Positions 7,566 to 14,213 of a stretch of 53,629 nt of DNA are shown one piece after another; position 1 is the stretch's first letter, and each line of letters begins with the position of its first letter. A model generated the notes under the pieces. The model saw nothing but the letters and a program-made list of their open reading frames with translations, made no database searches and was not told where the DNA came from. The position numbers and the translations under genes were made by a program. Origin of the DNA: Acidobacteriota bacterium (lineage in GTDB: Bacteria > Acidobacteriota > Terriglobia > Acidiferrales > UBA7541); the NCBI GenBank assembly GCA_003224525.1, contig QHZB01000249.1, forward strand, positions 1-53,629. The letters run 5' to 3'.

Positions 7566-9974
7566 ATGTTCACTCGCGAAAAACAAGAAATGAAGCGCGT
7601 GCCCATGATGCCGGTGCGCGATATGGTCATCTTTCCGCAACAGATGACTCCATTTATCGTTGGCCGTGAAGCCAGCGTGCGCGCGCTCGAAGAAGCGCTG
7701 GCCGGCGACAAGAAGATCTTTCTTTCCACGCAGCACGACGCGTCGGTGGACGATCCCAAACCGGAAGAAATCTATGCGGTCGGAACGCTTGCCAACATCG
7801 TCCAGAGCGTGAAGCTTCCCGACGGCAACATCAAAGTTCTCGTCGAAGGCGTGGAACGTGCTCGGGCCCTGTCGATCGCCACGGAAGAAGGATTCTTCCG
7901 CGCCACGGTGCGCCTGCTGGGTGCGCGTGTGGAGCCATCGCCGCAAGTCGAGCAGACGGTGCAGAAGATCACTGGGCTGTACGAGCAATTCATCAAGCTT
8001 TCGCAAAGCCTGAATTACGACACCATGATCGCGGCCGCGCGCGTGGATGATCCCGCACGGCTCTCGGATACGATCGCCGCAAACCTGCAATTGCCAGTGG
8101 ATGAAAAGCAGGATTTGCTCGAGACCGTCGATCCCATCGAGCGGCTGAATCGCATCGGCGACATCTTGGAGATCGAGCTCGAAAAACTGAACGTCGACCG
8201 CAACATCAATACGCGTGTGAAGCGCCAGATGGAGCGCGCGCAAAAAGAGTATTACCTCAACGAAAAGCTCAAGGCCATTCAGAAGGAGCTAGGGCGAGGC
8301 GAAAAAAGCGAAATCGACGAGCTGAAAAAGAAGATCGACACCGCCGGGATGTCCAAAGAGGTCCATGAGAAAGCCATCCAGGAGCTGAAGCGCCTTGAGC
8401 TCATGCCGCCGATGTCGGCGGAGTCCACGGTCAGCCGCAATTATCTGGATTGGCTGCTGGCGGTACCGTGGAAAAAGAAATCGAAGGAAATTCGCGACAT
8501 CAAAGCCGCGGAAAAGATACTGAATGAAGAGCACTACGGCCTCGAGAAGGTCAAAGAGCGCATCCTCGAATTTCTTGCCGTGCGCCAACTCGTGAAGAAT
8601 CCGAAAGGCTCTATTCTTTGTTTCGTGGGGCCTCCAGGCGTGGGCAAAACTTCCCTGGCGATGTCCATCGGCCATGCCACCGGACGCAAGTTCGTCCGCG
8701 TTTCGCTCGGCGGAGTGCGTGATGAAGCCGAAATCCGCGGCCATCGCCGCACTTATATCGGGGCCCTGCCCGGCCAAGTGATCCAGATGATGAAAAAAGC
8801 CGGCACGGTGAACCCGATCTTCGTGCTGGACGAAGTCGACAAGATGTCGACCGACTTCCGCGGCGACCCGTCAGCGGCGTTGATGGAAGTGCTCGATCCG
8901 GAACTGAACCACTCGTTTACGGACCATTACCTGGACGTGGAGTACGACCTTTCGAAAGTGATGTTCGTGTGCACGGCCAACGTGCTGCATACGATTCCGC
9001 AGCCGCTGCAGGACCGCATGGAAATTTTGCGCCTGCCCGGCTATACGGAGCAGGAAAAGCTGGAAATCGCCAAGAGGTTCCTAGTGAAGCGCGCGCTGGA
9101 AGCGACCGGCCTTACCGACAAGAACCTCAAGCTGACGGAGGATGGCCTGCTTCACATCATCCGGCACTACACGCACGAAGCGGGAGTTCGCAGCCTGGAG
9201 CGAGAGATTCAGAACATCGCGCGCAAGATGGCGCGCAAAGTCGTCACGGACGGCGCGAGTTCGAACGTGGAAATCACGCCCGCCAACGCCAGCGATTTCC
9301 TGGGTGTGCTGAAGTACCGCGAATTCTGGCTCGAGAAACACAACGAAATCGGCCTGACCACCGGACTGGCGTGGACCGAAGTGGGGGGCTCTGTGCTGTC
9401 CACGGAAGCCACGCTGATGGAAGGCAAAGGCCGCCTCACGCTAACCGGCAAGCTCGGTGACGTGATGCAGGAGTCCGCGCAAGCGGCGATGAGTTACGTC
9501 CGGTCGCGCTCCAATTTGCTCGGCTTGCCCAGGGATTTCTACCGCAACATCGACATTCACGTACATGTACCCGAAGGGGCCATTCCCAAGGACGGTCCAT
9601 CTGCCGGCATCACCATCTGCACGTCCATCGTCAGCGCGCTGACAAAGAATCCCGTGCGCCGCGACGTCACCATGACCGGCGAAATCACGCTGCGCGGCAA
9701 GGTGCTCCCCATCGGTGGGGTCAAGGAGAAACTCCTGGCCGCCCATCGAATGGGCTTGCGTACGGTACTGCTTCCGAAGGACAATGAGAAGGACCTGGCG
9801 GAAATCCCGCCCGAGATCCTCTCCAGTCTTACGATGCATTTTGTCGAGACCATGGATGAAGTGCTGCAGATTGCGCTGGAGCGGCCCACGGTGCCGCTTG
9901 AGCATGCCGCGGTTGCGCCCGTAGCGGAACCTTTCGTAGCCGGCGCCGAGAAAGACAAGAGTTTGACCAACTAA
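7566..9974 (+). CDS. lon: Lon ATP-dependent protease
   Basis: The 802-residue homohexameric protease combines an N-terminal substrate-binding domain (1-200), a coiled helical segment (210-300), an AAA+ module and a C-terminal protease domain. In the AAA+ module Walker A is GPPGVGKTS near residue 358 and Walker B is [10 protein letters not shown]. The catalytic Ser lies in PKDGPSAG and the Lys in [10 protein letters not shown], forming the Ser-Lys dyad. The start ATG 7566 has AGGGGACGGA directly upstream. It degrades misfolded and regulatory proteins in the cytoplasm. It closes the clp cluster; rho follows after 223 bases. Confidence 0.97.
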
Positions 9975-10197
9975 GCAGCGTCGTTTTGGGCCCGTCCCGT
10001 CCCGCGAGTTAACCCAGAGCTGGTCGGAGTTATGCTTGAGGGATTCACAGGTTTGCGCGGCCCGGCGCTGCCGCCGGTTGCACAAAGTCTGGTTTGCCCC
10101 ATCCTGGCAAGTTTTCGCTTATCCGCCAGTGCGGTGCGCCACCTCAAAAACAATCCGGATTCTCAGGGTCAATTTTCACCATCATAGCTAAGGATAT

Positions 10198-11526: not shown

Positions 11527-11557
11527 AAAAAAAGCGCAGTGAGTTTCCCCGCTGCGC
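11527..11557 (-). terminator. Rho-independent terminator of the Ro/Y-RNA operon
   Basis: On the minus strand GCGCAG (11557-11552), a 12-base loop and CTGCGC (11539-11534) are followed by seven T (11533-11527). It lies 32 bases after the rsr stop codon. It also faces the rho stop codon across the convergent gap. Confidence 0.7.
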
Positions 11558-11588
11558 CGGTTGAATTGTTCAGTTCAAAGACGAATCG

Positions 11589-12920
11589 TCAGGCCGCAGC
11601 TTCTGCTTCCACCGCGGCGATGTAGTCGATGATGCGCTCCGACCAGCCGTCGATGTGCGTCCAGCCGTTGCCGTAGCTGATGCCGTGCTTGTACGGGGCC
11701 ACGTTCACCACGTACGCGCGCGGCGTCCAGGCCCGCAGCATGCCGTCGTGCGACTGCTCGTCGGTAATCACGATGAGCCGATGGAGTTCGCGCCACTCCG
11801 CCTTCTCGTGAAGCTGTGTCAGCGCGCGCTTGAGGTATGTCCCCGAGTGCGCCTGCGAGTCGAAGATGGCGTCGCGCAACGCGAAGCAGCGACGGGGCGG
11901 CAGTTCGACGCAAGCGTCGGAGAAGGTCGCTATGGAAAACTCCTCGGCCTTCTCACGAAACAGGATAGCGAGTCCTGCCGCCGCGTCCATGCGCGTGGTT
12001 TCGCCCTTCTTCGAGAGCTTGTAGTTCATCGAGCCGGAGACGTCCACGACGAGTCCGGTCGATCCCGCAAGCCGCTCGAATGCGGCGATGCCCTCGAGCA
12101 TGGCCTTTTCAAGCGCGTCCTCGAGTTTCGGAGCGTGACGCGCCGCCGTCACGAAACGGAACGGCAGCGCGCGAGCGACGCCCTTGTCCAGTCGCTCACG
12201 AATGAGCTTCGGATCGACGCCTGATGCCAGCAGTAGGCGGAGGTTTCGCAGGACGGCCATGCCGCCCAGCTTGCCCTCGCGCAGGAGTCTCTCGAAGTTC
12301 TCGCGCTTGTCCTTCCCTGCGGACAAGGCAACCTCCCAGGTATCGGGAGATTCGAGCGTGTTCTCAACGAGCTTCTTCCAGAGTACAGCCTGCGCTTCGT
12401 CCTTGGGCTTCGCGTGGCAGAGGAACAGCACGTCGCGGAGCTTGACCGCCGACTCGCGGTCGTACTTCGCAAGCTGGTAGGCGTCGAACTTCGTGAACGC
12501 CCGCGCCAGCCCGCGCTTTACGCCCGCAGAAAGCGGCTGCTTCTTTTCCTTCCAGTAGAGCGACACGAACTCGCCGAGTTCGTCGGCGCGCTGGATCACG
12601 TCCTCGAGCGTCTCCGCCACGAGCGGGCCCGCGCCCTTGCGGCGCGCGAGTTCGCGCGTGAGGAAGAGCGGCGCGTGACGAAGCTGCATTTCGCCGCGTG
12701 CTTCCCGCGCGAGTGCCGCCACAACTTCCGGCTTGTTCTCGGCGGCGAGCGCGGCGATGCGCGTCGCGATGTCGTTGCCCTTCTCGTAGAAGGTGTCTTC
12801 CCAGAGCAGGCAGGTGAGCACCGTGCGCCGGAGTGCGCTCTTCGCGTCCACCTTTTGCGCCACTGCGCCCTCGTGCGTCCGCACCGGGAACATCCGCTTC
12901 CATACGTTCATCTTTGCCAT
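11589..12920 (-). CDS. rsr: TROVE-domain Ro60-like RNA-binding protein
   Basis: The 443-residue protein has an N-terminal helical-repeat TROVE module (about 1-280). It contains phrases typical of the family, such as LLWEDTFYEKGNDIATRI, LRHAPLFLTRELAR and RLLREGKLGGMAVLRNLR. A von Willebrand A domain follows with the metal site DVSGS at residue 293 and a late ITDEQ. Ro60 proteins form a ring that binds misfolded RNA ends in its hole and Y RNAs on its outer face; in bacteria they work with exonucleases in RNA quality control and stress recovery. I chose ATG 12920 because AAAGGAGGA lies nine bases upstream; the frame is open to 12944. Directly upstream on the same strand are an AbrB-like gene and four Y-RNA-like elements, which supports a Ro role strongly. 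No rtcB/rtcA is in the window. Confidence 0.93.
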   Translation of the reverse strand: MAKMNVWKRMFPVRTHEGAVAQKVDAKSALRRTVLTCLLWEDTFYEKGNDIATRIAALAAENKPEVVAALAREARGEMQLRHAPLFLTRELARRKGAGPLVAETLEDVIQRADELGEFVSLYWKEKKQPLSAGVKRGLARAFTKFDAYQLAKYDRESAVKLRDVLFLCHAKPKDEAQAVLWKKLVENTLESPDTWEVALSAGKDKRENFERLLREGKLGGMAVLRNLRLLLASGVDPKLIRERLDKGVARALPFRFVTAARHAPKLEDALEKAMLEGIAAFERLAGSTGLVVDVSGSMNYKLSKKGETTRMDAAAGLAILFREKAEEFSIATFSDACVELPPRRCFALRDAIFDSQAHSGTYLKRALTQLHEKAEWRELHRLIVITDEQSHDGMLRAWTPRAYVVNVAPYKHGISYGNGWTHIDGWSERIIDYIAAVEAEAAA

Positions 12921-13026
12921 TGCTGCCACTCCTCCTTTCCGCAAGCCTTTCCTATATTGGTCAGCTCGCCTGGTCGAACAAAATTATTGGACGGTGCAAG
13001 AGCCATTCGCCTTCTGTTGCACCGAA

Positions 13027-13287
13027 TCAATGCACCCGCCGCGGGCTCGACGGACTGATGTGAAACTTGCCGTCGGTATTGTGGACGCAGACCAAATCCC
13101 CTTCTTCGATCCCGAGCATCCCCGCTAGCCACTCTGGAATGACGATCTTGAGAAATTCCCCTTGCACCTCAGAGATGCCGCGTGAACACTTCATCAGCTC
13201 ATCGCCCCCGGCAGAGAGAGGGATTATCAAGACCAACTCCCCGTTGACCTTCAACACCGGCCCTTCCAAAGACATCACGTCTTCCAT
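13027..13287 (-). CDS. Small AbrB/SpoVT-fold-like protein
   Basis: The 86-residue protein ends with a swapped-hairpin-like segment (FLKIVIPEWLAGMLGIEEGDLVCVHNTDGKFHI), the pattern of AbrB-type beta-strand, helix, GD-turn and strand. Before it lies a second, parallel-looking beta segment (GPVLKVNGELVLIIPLSAGGDEL). It could bind DNA and autoregulate the operon, or bind RNA; neither is shown. No PIN or other toxin gene follows, so it is not an obvious antitoxin. The start ATG 13287 has AAGGAG eight bases upstream. It lies between the RNA array and rsr, on the same strand. Confidence 0.7.
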   Translation of the reverse strand: MEDVMSLEGPVLKVNGELVLIIPLSAGGDELMKCSRGISEVQGEFLKIVIPEWLAGMLGIEEGDLVCVHNTDGKFHISPSSPRRVH

Positions 13288-13320
13288 GAGACGCTTCTCC
13301 TTTCTTTCTGCTTCAAACTG

Positions 13321-13454
13321 CTGGACGGGAACATCCGGCCAGGGACATTAGGCGCTCGGACCATTGAGCCACTGGGTCTTTCGATCCAAGTGGGAATCGA
13401 ACCCACACCTCCCGCGTGTCAGGCGAAGTAACCCTGAGCCCTCACCACGTCCAA
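13321..13454 (-). ncRNA. Y-RNA-like element 4, with permuted tRNA module
   Basis: Read on the minus strand. P1: TGGACG (13453-13448) pairs with CGTCCA (13327-13322), with a further U.G pair outside. After GTGGTGAG comes P2: GGC, one bulged U, CAGGG (13440-13432) pairs with CCCTG-GCC (13344-13337). A TAC and a small CGC/GCG hairpin follow. The tRNA-like module spans 13406-13354. Its T-arm is GTGGG, loop TTCGATT, CCCAC. The acceptor-like stem TTGGATC pairs with GACCCAG (one A.C mismatch, one U.G) and is closed by a GAAA tetraloop. Then comes TG and the D-arm GCTC, loop AATGGTCC, GAGC. The order T-arm, capped acceptor, D-arm is a circularly permuted tRNA, as in YrlA-type Y RNAs. There is no anticodon arm and no free CCA end. 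Confidence 0.82.
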
Positions 13455-13532
13455 CTTTTCTTGTCTGCGCGCAAAACATTCGCGCAAGCATTTCTTTGAG
13501 AGCCGCCACCCATGACGACGTCTCCTCTAGCC

Positions 13533-13570
13533 CCGGCGCGAACCGCCGACTGGTCCGCGGTTCGCGCCGG
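13533..13570. repeat. 14-bp perfect hairpin between Y-RNA-like elements 3 and 4
   Basis: CCGGCGCGAACCGC (13533-13546) and GCGGTTCGCGCCGG (13557-13570) pair perfectly around a 10-base loop. No T-run follows on either strand, so it is not a standard terminator. It could protect an RNA end, or guide processing between element 3 and element 4. Confidence 0.75.
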
Positions 13571-13580
13571 CCAACATCAA

Positions 13581-13667
13581 GCCGGGAGGAATAGTCGATC
13601 AGAGTAGCGGGGCCACAGCCCCACGTCGTTTGACAGACGAAGTAACTCTTCTCCGCGCCATCCCGGC
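13581..13667 (-). ncRNA. Y-RNA-like element 3, without tRNA module
   Basis: Read on the minus strand. P1: GCCGGGA (13667-13661) pairs with TCCCGGC (13587-13581). The 5' strand continues TGGCG, and the 3' strand carries the TTCC segment shared with element 1. P2: AGAGT (13649-13645) pairs with ACTCT (13605-13601). TAC is followed by hairpin TCGT, 7-base loop, ACGA (13640-13626), then hairpin GGGGC, 4-base loop, GCCCC (13622-13609). The frame of P1, P2, TAC and hairpin matches elements 2 and 4, but the tRNA module is replaced by one stable hairpin. It begins only four bases after element 2 ends, so the two must be separated by processing if they act singly. Confidence 0.65.
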
Positions 13668-13671
13668 AACT

Positions 13672-13807
13672 TTTGCGGCGGGAATCAGCGGCCCAGGTAT
13701 TTGTCCGCCGCTCTATCCATTGAGCTACGGCAGCTTGCGCCGCCGGCAGGAGTCGAACCTGCAACCGTCGGATCCCGATGTAACCCGTGCCTTCACCACG
13801 CCGCAAA
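13672..13807 (-). ncRNA. Y-RNA-like element 2, with permuted tRNA module
   Basis: Read on the minus strand. P1: TTTGCGGCG (13807-13799) pairs with CGCCGCAAA (13680-13672), 9 bp. P2: GGC-A-CGGGT (13791-13783) pairs with ACCTG-G-GCC (13698-13690) with one A.G mismatch. TAC is followed by hairpin TCGG-GAT-CCGA. The tRNA-like module spans 13762-13710. Its T-arm is GCAGG, loop TTCGACT, CCTGC. The acceptor-like stem CGGCGGC pairs over all 7 bp with GCTGCCG (one G.U) under a GCAA tetraloop. TA and the D-arm GCTC, loop AATGGATA, GAGC complete it. Both loops are canonical for tRNA D-loop/T-loop docking. A tRNA scanner may call halves of this as a tRNA, but the order is permuted and there is no anticodon stem-loop. 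Confidence 0.85.
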
Positions 13808-13886
13808 CTTTTTGATCTCTGCACACACCCCCAGCGTTCATCAACGAAGCTCTAATCATTTCGCCAATGTGCGGTTCGCTTGAAAC

Positions 13887-13981
13887 TTCCGGGAGGAACT
13901 GGCGCTCACGGTGATTCGGGATTCGCACCCGAGCCTTGCGGCTTCACCTGAAGAAGTAGCCGTGAACTTCACCATCCCGGG
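13887..13981 (-). ncRNA. Y-RNA-like element 1, variant with T-arm-like hairpin only
   Basis: Read on the minus strand. P1: CCGGGA (13980-13975) pairs with TCCCGG (13894-13889). TGGTGA follows on the 5' strand and TTCC precedes the 3' strand, as in the other elements. P2: TCACGG (13965-13960) pairs with CCGTGA (13911-13906). TAC is followed by hairpin CTTC, 7-base loop, GAAG. Then comes a T-arm-like hairpin, TCGGG, 7-base loop TGCGAAT, CCCGA (13932-13916). No capped acceptor or D-arm follows inside the closing helix; a weak D-arm-like string lies outside it at 13864-13849. It is the first element after the promoter. Confidence 0.62.
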
Positions 13982-14021
13982 ACACTCATCCCCCAGTGGA
14001 TTTGCTTTGGATCGAAACGAC

Positions 14022-14117
14022 TTAGGCGGTTTGTCTTAGAGACGCGCGAACAAGCAGTCCACGAAACCAAGGTCGCCTTGTAATCATTCCGTCTTGGCTT
14101 TTGTCTTCGTGTCTCAT
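14022..14117 (-). CDS. Possible 31-residue leader ORF
   Basis: ATG 14117 opens a short basic peptide (MRHEDKSQDGMITRRPW...) that ends with TAA at 14022, about 40 bases before Y-RNA-like element 1. It has no convincing ribosome-binding site and no recognised family. It may be chance. Confidence 0.2.
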   Translation of the reverse strand: MRHEDKSQDGMITRRPWFRGLLVRASLRQTA

Positions 14118-14184
14118 AGTCTGCTCTTCACGCTCAGTGAGGACCTGCACCAAAATGCAGCGGGTGTACGACTCAGGTATCCTG

Positions 14185-14213
14185 AAAGTAAACGGAGATT
14201 GAATTTCTGTCAA
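14185..14213 (-). promoter_or_regulatory. Near-consensus sigma-70 promoter of the Ro/Y-RNA operon
   Basis: On the minus strand TTGACA (14213-14208), 17 bases, TACTTT (14190-14185). The expected start is near 14178. The upstream DNA is A/T-rich, like an UP element. It drives a leader of about 200 bases, which includes a small hairpin (CTGCA/TGCAG), before element 1. No other promoter of this quality is visible down to rsr. Confidence 0.75.

Follow-up and report, generated by a model that had tools for sequence, protein, structure and literature searches.

A chromosomal short-Ro60 operon in an Acidobacteriota genome with four Y RNA-like elements and putative anticodon-arm mimicry

Ro60 is known from lupus autoimmunity. 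Among bacterial systems, the Rsr/DrY/PNPase assembly (RYPER) of Deinococcus radiodurans, the rsr-yrlBA-rtcBA locus of Salmonella and the YrlA RNAs (RF02553; Salmonella YrlA, PDB 6CU1) offer points of comparison for the operon described here, which was found in a window of 53,629 nucleotides from the genome of a soil acidobacterium (Acidobacteriota). With RYPER it shares a ring fold built from TROVE and vWA domains and the design of Y RNA binding, but the window protein has about 440 residues and 18% identity to D. radiodurans Rsr over the Foldseek alignment, and a partnership with PNPase would be hypothetical here. The Salmonella locus likewise carries at least two Y RNAs together with its Ro60 gene, whereas the window operon lacks adjacent rtcB, rtcA and rtcR. 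The likeness to YrlA lies in a Ro-binding stem joined to a permuted T arm, an acceptor-like hairpin and a D arm, an arrangement that one of our elements, E2, fits; the Rfam consensus, however, has no anticodon arm, while the arrays considered below include anticodon-arm mimics as well as short and hairpin forms. The same protein subfamily, Y RNA core and array habit are found in phage CcrPW, Brevundimonas phages and Xanthomonas 10KY502B, and the Ro60 protein of Thermus phage phiLo belongs to this subfamily as well, a likeness drawn for the protein alone. Unlike the phage loci, the window copy is chromosomal, occupies a MacB-like/rho site and is accompanied by an AbrB-like open reading frame.

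All parts of the operon run in one direction on the minus strand, from 14213 to 11527. They begin with a promoter, TTGACA-17-TACTTT (14185-14213), which was absent from the output of a generic promoter scan and whose -35 and -10 elements are kept in the relatives L029, L030 and L032. It is followed by a leader predicted to be transcribed and conserved in a six-genome alignment (13985-14184), by four Y RNA-like elements (E1 to E4) with a 14-bp G+C-rich palindrome (13533-13570) in the gap between E3 and E4, by an AbrB-like open reading frame of 86 residues (13027-13287; TIGR01439, 17.3 bits, below the cut-off), by the TROVE (Ro60) gene and by an intrinsic terminator consisting of a hairpin and T7 (11527-11557). 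One orthologue of the AbrB-like frame, 79% identical, resides in the same operon in genome G031. The first-pass annotation had proposed just this one-directional set with no RNA ligase nearby, and both statements held: every part was found, and RtcB, though encoded in the same genome, lies on another contig. The adjoining genes are rho, AbrB-like and MacB-like, and the TROVE operon occupies a conserved chromosomal site between the MacB-like gene and rho; the adjacent rtcB/rtcA and RtcR that would mark an rtcBA RNA repair operon are missing. Genes for nucleases, toxins or effectors do not occur beside the operon, PADLOC returned no match for its proteins, and among these proteins PHROGs matched TROVE alone (phrog_850, an RNA-binding family). 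Alignment of the whole upstream region across relatives gave nothing useful because the intervening genes differ. Relatives also contain an orphan open reading frame of 277 residues with neither a family match nor a confident fold (pLDDT 44).

The TROVE gene (11589-12920, minus strand) encodes a short Ro60 protein of about 443 residues when read from the ATG at 12920. It passes the cut-off of Pfam PF05731 (58.3 bits, cut-off 23) and has, by alignment, an intact vWA MIDAS motif, DxSxS. The AF2 model (pLDDT 86) adopts the Ro60 fold, a helical-repeat ring closed by the vWA domain, and Foldseek retrieved the phiLo Ro60 (TM 0.75), D. radiodurans Rsr (2nvo) and Ro60-RNA complexes within a TM range of 0.62-0.77. 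Identity to the closest solved relative is 27%. With 23.1 bits against a cut-off of 900, the protein is not a member of the NCBIfam Rsr equivalog NF041674. It branches inside phage sequences, and the operon is probably phage-derived and now chromosomal.

A search rule of the form P1(>=6 bp)-TGG[TC]G...TTCC-P1' returned exactly E1 to E4 on the minus strand of the window and one chance match on the plus strand, compared with 0 or 1 match in each of 20 mononucleotide shuffles; a stricter score adding P2 and the TACTTC box gave the four elements plus one weak plus-strand match. Read from its sequence, each element carries the same core, made up of a P1 helix in which a T is bulged, the motif TGG(T/C)G, the P2 helix, a TACTTC box and a TTCC. 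By homology, this common core would bind Ro, and each core would bear an interchangeable module. E1 (13889-13980, 92 nt) combines P1, the bulged T and P2 with anticodon-like (CTTC-TTCAGGT-GAAG, 13942-13956), variable-arm-like and T-arm-like hairpins. E2 (13672-13807, 136 nt) is of the classical YrlA type: a T arm, an acceptor-like hairpin and a D arm are present, and an anticodon arm is absent. E3 (13581-13667, 87 nt) adds to the core a G+C hairpin and a hairpin of anticodon type (TCGT-CTGTCAA-ACGA, 13626-13640) whose anticodon, GTC, is Asp-like. E4 (13320-13455, 136 nt) resembles a permuted tRNA-Val(GAC): besides an anticodon arm at 13411-13427 it has a T arm, a D arm and an acceptor-like hairpin. 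In place of the two structural classes proposed earlier we distinguish three: the long tRNA-like E2 and E4, E1 with its variable-arm-like hairpin and T arm, and E3 with its anticodon-like and G+C hairpins. The gathering score of Rfam YrlA (RF02553) is 69; E2 fell short of it with 42.6 bits (E 4e-7), as did E4 with 24.7 bits (E 0.06), and E1 and E3 gave no match. Even under a broad definition, requiring a basal Ro helix together with a T arm, acceptor hairpin and D arm in permuted order, only E2 and E4 are YrlA-like, the full module being absent from E1 and E3.

In their sequence, the modules of E2 and E4 are circularly permuted tRNAs, opened between the D and anticodon arms and with the acceptor strands bridged by a short loop, GCAA in the former and GAAA in the latter. 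An open acceptor stem, as expected of a functional or permuted tRNA gene, does not occur, and neither element should be chargeable because the loop closes the acceptor stem. ARAGORN detected no tRNA in the unrotated window and one among 102 unrotated Y RNAs. After rotation of long Y RNAs with an anticodon arm, it reported a tRNA with the predicted anticodon in 31 of 36 (28 of 33 with the loop register as indexed, plus three indexed one base off) and in 0 of 36 shuffled sequences; rotated E4 was called Val(GAC). Note that simple rotations yielded tRNA shapes with incorrect anticodons, owing to the bases of P2 retained in them, and that cutting exactly at the anticodon stem yielded the predicted ones.

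The four-membered Ro60 operon had been regarded as a possibly undescribed architecture. The operon itself stands, but it is not an isolated case. We surveyed 105 loci, all of the short (about 440 residues) TROVE subfamily and mostly from phages. The core search found 249 Y RNAs, compared with 5 for the opposite strand and 1 for shuffled sequence; at least two were present in 73 of the 105 loci and at least four in 22, and Caulobacter phage CcrPW has eight. Arrays of several Y RNAs are therefore the rule in this subfamily (Acidobacteriota, Terricaulis, many phages), which rules out an expansion unique to the window's genome. Within arrays, tRNA mimics that have anticodon arms occur alongside hairpin forms and short forms lacking a tRNA module, and in none of 16 TROVE loci tested was the RF02553 gathering score reached. 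One might take such elements for decayed or mobile fragments of tRNA unrelated to the TROVE protein, given that Rfam and depositors label parts of them as tRNA. We consider this very improbable, since the elements share a core that lies outside the tRNA portion, Y RNAs adjoin TROVE in 90 of the 105 loci and the order E1 to E4 is conserved. The survey shows that some of the phage 'tRNA' annotations adjoining TROVE genes cover parts of Y RNAs.

Besides the permuted modules, an anticodon-like stem-loop is displayed in E4 and probably in E1 and E3. Across the survey, the hairpin 3' of the Ro-binding core qualifies as an anticodon-arm mimic (7-nt loop, U33, purine 37) in 81 of 225 Y RNAs, compared with a null mean of 4.5 and a maximum of 12, whereas versions with 6- or 8-nt loops stay near the null; under this rule about 64% of Y RNAs have no anticodon-type hairpin. 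The IMG/VR subset, looked at only once the idea existed, gave 53 of 141 against 2.9. G36 is coupled to G37 as in the tRNA rule (P 4e-9), with matches to own-genome tRNAs in 10 of 12 versus 0 of 31 cases, and 23 loops are identical to anticodon loops of their own genomes (column-shuffle mean 10.6, maximum 21). Both U36-A37 and G36-G37, general tRNA determinants of t6A37 and m1G37 modification, are frequent among anticodon-type loops. Identification of the hairpin as a T-loop was rejected, as T arms give a signal of their own 20-25 nt beyond it and have other letters in the loop. The anticodon hairpin is part of the minimum-energy fold in 41 of the 81 cases; single-sequence folds of E1, E3 and E4 disfavour it (mean pair probability 0.05-0.13), and the consensus fold of E3 does contain the 7-nt hairpin.

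Five relatives keep the array wholly or mostly. A lack of compensatory changes had been named as grounds for discarding the elements. When orthologues from five or six genomes are compared, both partners have changed in three base pairs of E4, three of E3 and eight of E2 (the latter by RNAalifold), so that E2, E3 and E4 withstand this objection, while E1 has no such pair. RNAalifold favours a shifted register for E4, and the 7-nt loop is disrupted in some orthologues, namely E3 of L029 and L032 and E1 of L030. The predicted anticodon varies among array members and switches between orthologues, those of E4 reading Val, Gln, Val, Val, Leu and Leu. Column identity in E4 is 0.27-0.67 at positions 34-38 and 1.0 at 32-33 and most of the stem; the orthologues differ by whole 34-38 blocks between fixed flanks, and three of these blocks (GACAC, Val; CTGGA, Gln; CAGGA, Leu) equal positions 34-38 of real tRNAs in the window's genome. 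We consider new both the predicted anticodon-arm mimic after the Ro-binding core and the apparent switching of anticodons in a constant E4 body. If Y RNAs simply descended from tRNA genes, with the anticodon arm an inert remnant and the array serving to raise the dose of an ordinary particle for RNA quality control, drift should erode U33, the purine at 37 and the coupling of 36 with 37; instead, E4 exchanges whole blocks that match real tRNAs while its flanks stay constant. In keeping with such a descent, YrlA has been recognised before as mimicking a permuted tRNA (PMC11472068) and many Y RNAs have no anticodon arm, and yet we regard an inert remnant as unlikely.

While the anatomy of the operon and its Y RNAs is well supported, function has to be approached through a model. 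One transcript, suggested because there is one promoter and one terminator in the same direction, would give rise to four Y RNAs, the AbrB-like protein and the short Ro60 ring protein. The ring would then present the Y RNAs as tRNA baits, which may soak up or detect anticodon nucleases and other enzymes that attack tRNA, or bring tRNA-handling enzymes to Ro60. That the Y RNAs are tRNA baits or decoys presented on the Ro60 ring is our main reading, to which we assign a probability of about 0.5. In principle, the Y RNAs could also act as tethers in a RYPER-like manner, each linking the same Ro60 ring with its own tRNA-binding partner, be it PNPase, a modification enzyme or another nuclease, and the anticodon loops aiding the choice. 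For DrY and YrlA it is known that Rsr is bound by the basal stem and PNPase by the effector module, which DusA and TruB modify (PMC8394870); modules vary inside single arrays, and the frequent U36-A37 and G36-G37 combinations point the same way. Tethering to a conserved partner, however, does not predict rapid anticodon switching in a constant body, and we hold it to be a serious contender that falls short of even odds. The proposal of the first-pass annotation that several Y RNAs give one Ro protein different effector partners is plausible in this general form, and the evidence is more specific, consisting of differing tRNA-like modules and, in about one third of Y RNAs, differing anticodon loops. 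A decoy or sensor role is favoured because the anticodon evolves fastest and the largest arrays are those of phages. Salmonella YrlA is not cut by a RecA-dependent anticodon nuclease (PMC7790460), and a decoy must therefore bind without cleavage or differ from YrlA. In its most specific and rather tentative version, the bait reading would make Ro60-bound arrays libraries of exchangeable anticodon decoys, used by phages and adopted by some Acidobacteria to weaken the action of anticodon nucleases or to detect them, the anticodon cassette of each Y RNA being re-specified as the nucleases change.

If many Y RNAs do show real anticodon loops, and arrays several of them, the target that the effector module of bacterial Y RNAs recognises would become directly testable by a three-base swap. 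Ro60 would then be tied to the contest between phages and defences that cleave tRNA, which would account for phages keeping Ro60 and as many as eight Y RNAs.

The Ro60 operon of the window runs consecutively along the minus strand. A promoter-like sequence (TTGACA-17-TACTTT, 14213-14185) is followed by the four structured Y-RNA-like elements E1 (13980-13889), E2 (13807-13672), E3 (13667-13581) and E4 (13455-13320), an open reading frame for 86 amino acids (13287-13027), the gene for a protein with TROVE and von Willebrand domains (Pfam), which ends at 11589, and a terminator recognized from sequence (11557-11527). The first-pass annotation had placed promoter, four elements, TROVE gene and terminator in one direction, and all of them are present; its AbrB-like gene exists as the 86-residue frame, but the resemblance to AbrB is weak. 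When the window was scanned for a P1 helix around TGG(T/C)G and TTCC, E1-E4 were matched along with one chance match on the plus strand, and the same rule yielded 0 or 1 matches in shuffled sequence. The Rfam family YrlA gave a good match to E2 and a weak one to E4, neither of which reached its cut-off. The leader between promoter and E1 (13985-14184) is conserved across six genomes, with the boxes GAGACACGAAGACAAAAGCC and GGTCTCGTGGACTGCTTGTTCGCGCG; a 32-aa reading frame inside it does not stay in frame among genomes. A G+C-rich 14-bp palindrome without a T tail lies in the gap between E3 and E4 (13533-13570) and could be a repeat or a processing signal.

This TROVE type is rare in the genus, with six intact or nearly intact copies beyond the window and a decayed one in the genome G032. 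Orthologues that carry names stem from Acidobacteria metagenome genomes, part of them labelled group 2. Among the relatives the order E1-E4 is conserved, with E1 decayed in locus L032, and several genomes share the site of the array, which adjoins a MacB-like permease gene and the rho-lon genes. In one relative (L030), an insertion of two EAL-HDOD signalling genes (7585-10032) separates TROVE from rho. Consensus folding of the orthologue alignments returned P1, an unpaired T followed by two G-C pairs, P2, a T arm, an acceptor-like hairpin and a D arm. The compensatory changes in homologous loci to which the first-pass annotation had looked for a check are indeed seen, as compensatory pairs in E2, E3 and E4. 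Between Y RNAs and TROVE, relatives encode a 277-aa orphan (L029 5088-5921, L032 5098-5928, L028 5085-5915), which was detected solely in genomes having this TROVE (6/6 found) and has no match in Pfam, NCBIfam, PHROGs or PADLOC. The AbrB-like frame occurs among relatives in genome G031 alone, alongside this orphan, and the window has therefore probably lost the latter. In another acidobacterial family the Y RNAs have a different orphan as neighbour, one of 105-155 aa that contains CxxC motifs (L035 5794-6129, L038, L040 5617-6084).

Arrays are general in the short TROVE subfamily to which the window protein belongs and are not confined to the window. Scoring P1, TGG(T/C)G, P2, the TACTTC box and TTCC, we found 249 elements across 105 TROVE loci, compared with 5 on the other strand and 1 after shuffling. 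At least two elements occur in 73 of these loci and at least four in 22; more than half of adjacent elements are spaced by 20 nt or less, and TROVE mostly lies downstream. Caulobacter phage CcrPW has eight Y RNAs, Brevundimonas phages have five or six, and Rhizobium phage Y65 (L053 1730-2856) has seven with a variant core, TTGCGA for TGGTGA and TATCTC for TTCC. Downstream of TROVE in Bacteroides phage crAss001 (L054 4400-5100), a stretch of about 0.9 kb that lacks annotated genes apparently contains several Y-RNA-like units, one of which is flanked by a D-arm piece (GGAGGGATAGCTCAGTTGGTAGAGC) and a T-arm piece with matching acceptor strand. Genes deposited as tRNA-Ser and tRNA-Thr in phages Kikimora (L048 2796-2870) and 10KY502B (L050 2792-2859) lie inside array Y RNAs and are probably not true tRNA genes. 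Matches to permuted tmRNA (RF04321) were also noted near the arrays of Brevundimonas phages (L048 6371-6716, L049 6789-7046).

Many elements carry a hairpin of anticodon type after the TACTTC box, a pattern first spotted by eye and then defined by a 7-base loop with T at position 2 and a purine at position 6. It is present in 81 of 225 elements versus 4.5 expected (maximum 12) from local shuffles, which preserve only the base composition of the local segment, related loci not being fully independent. Loops of 6 and 8 bases were near null in the same test. The excess recurs in the IMG/VR subset, unread when the idea arose (53/141 vs 2.9), and in a non-redundant set (70/207 vs 4.2), where A34 is rare (6/70). 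Loops of 5 bases are raised as well (15 vs 2.9). In tRNA numbering, G37 accompanies G36 in 20/28 elements versus 4/53 with another base 36 (P 4e-9), which is the rule of the genome's own tRNAs, and 23 loops are identical to anticodon loops of the window's genome versus 10.6 after column shuffling. In the window's own elements the hairpin is not favoured by folding energy. The consensus fold supports it in E3, shifts its register in E4 and is silent on E1, which makes an anticodon-type hairpin in E1 no more than suggestive. An anticodon arm is absent from E2. Anticodons of E3 orthologues read GTC, GTC, GTA and GTG, with two loops broken.

For 36 long elements with an anticodon hairpin, the segment after the acceptor-like loop was placed ahead of the segment before it. 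After this rearrangement, 28 of the 33 elements with a correct loop index were recognized by ARAGORN as tRNAs bearing the anticodon predicted for them. For the three whose predicted loop was one base off, it returned Val(GAC), Val(GAC) and Leu(CAA), correct by eye. Shuffled sequences produced no such calls, and unrotated long elements one in 102. This rotation identifies E4 in the window as a permuted mimic of tRNA-Val(GAC). Its orthologues carry Val GAC, Gln CTG, Val GAC, Val GAC, Leu CAG and Leu CAA; within the arm, variation is highest at positions 34-38, with 32-33 and most of the stem unchanged.

The AlphaFold2 model of the window protein (pLDDT 86) best matches a TROVE-domain crystal structure, Ro60 of Thermus phage phiLo, D. 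radiodurans Rsr and Ro60-RNA complexes, and the MIDAS motif DxSxS is conserved in the short subfamily, which is common among phages. In a midpoint-rooted tree of 63 sequences, the window's clade is nested inside phage sequences (branch supports 97/96 and 95/85) and the remaining acidobacterial sequences form a separate clade. Sequence relationships thus suggest at least two exchanges between phages and bacteria, the direction of which is not proven. A 54-kb viral contig from IMG/VR (L108) combines about 14 tRNA genes with a Y RNA array and a TROVE 67% identical to that of the window, most bacterial ones being more distant.

Ro60 operons and Y RNAs are already known, and so is permuted tRNA mimicry, in the case of YrlA (PMC11472068). 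Rsr binds the basal stem of the Y RNA, whose tRNA-like part is bound by PNPase and serves as a substrate for modification by DusA and TruB (PMC8394870). Abundant RNAs near an Rsr-like gene of a Listeria phage may be Y RNAs, as their authors suggest (PMC12282133). YrlA has been proposed as a possible inhibitor of an anticodon nuclease, yet the one tested did not cut it (PMC7790460). The literature searched, with the main papers outside its scope, contained no description of anticodon arms in Y RNAs or of arrays with different anticodons, and we provisionally regard both as new. Ro60 may present several tRNA baits, and a decoy or sensor role would be favoured over that of a pure tether, because the anticodon changes fastest and the largest arrays among the loci examined belong to phages.
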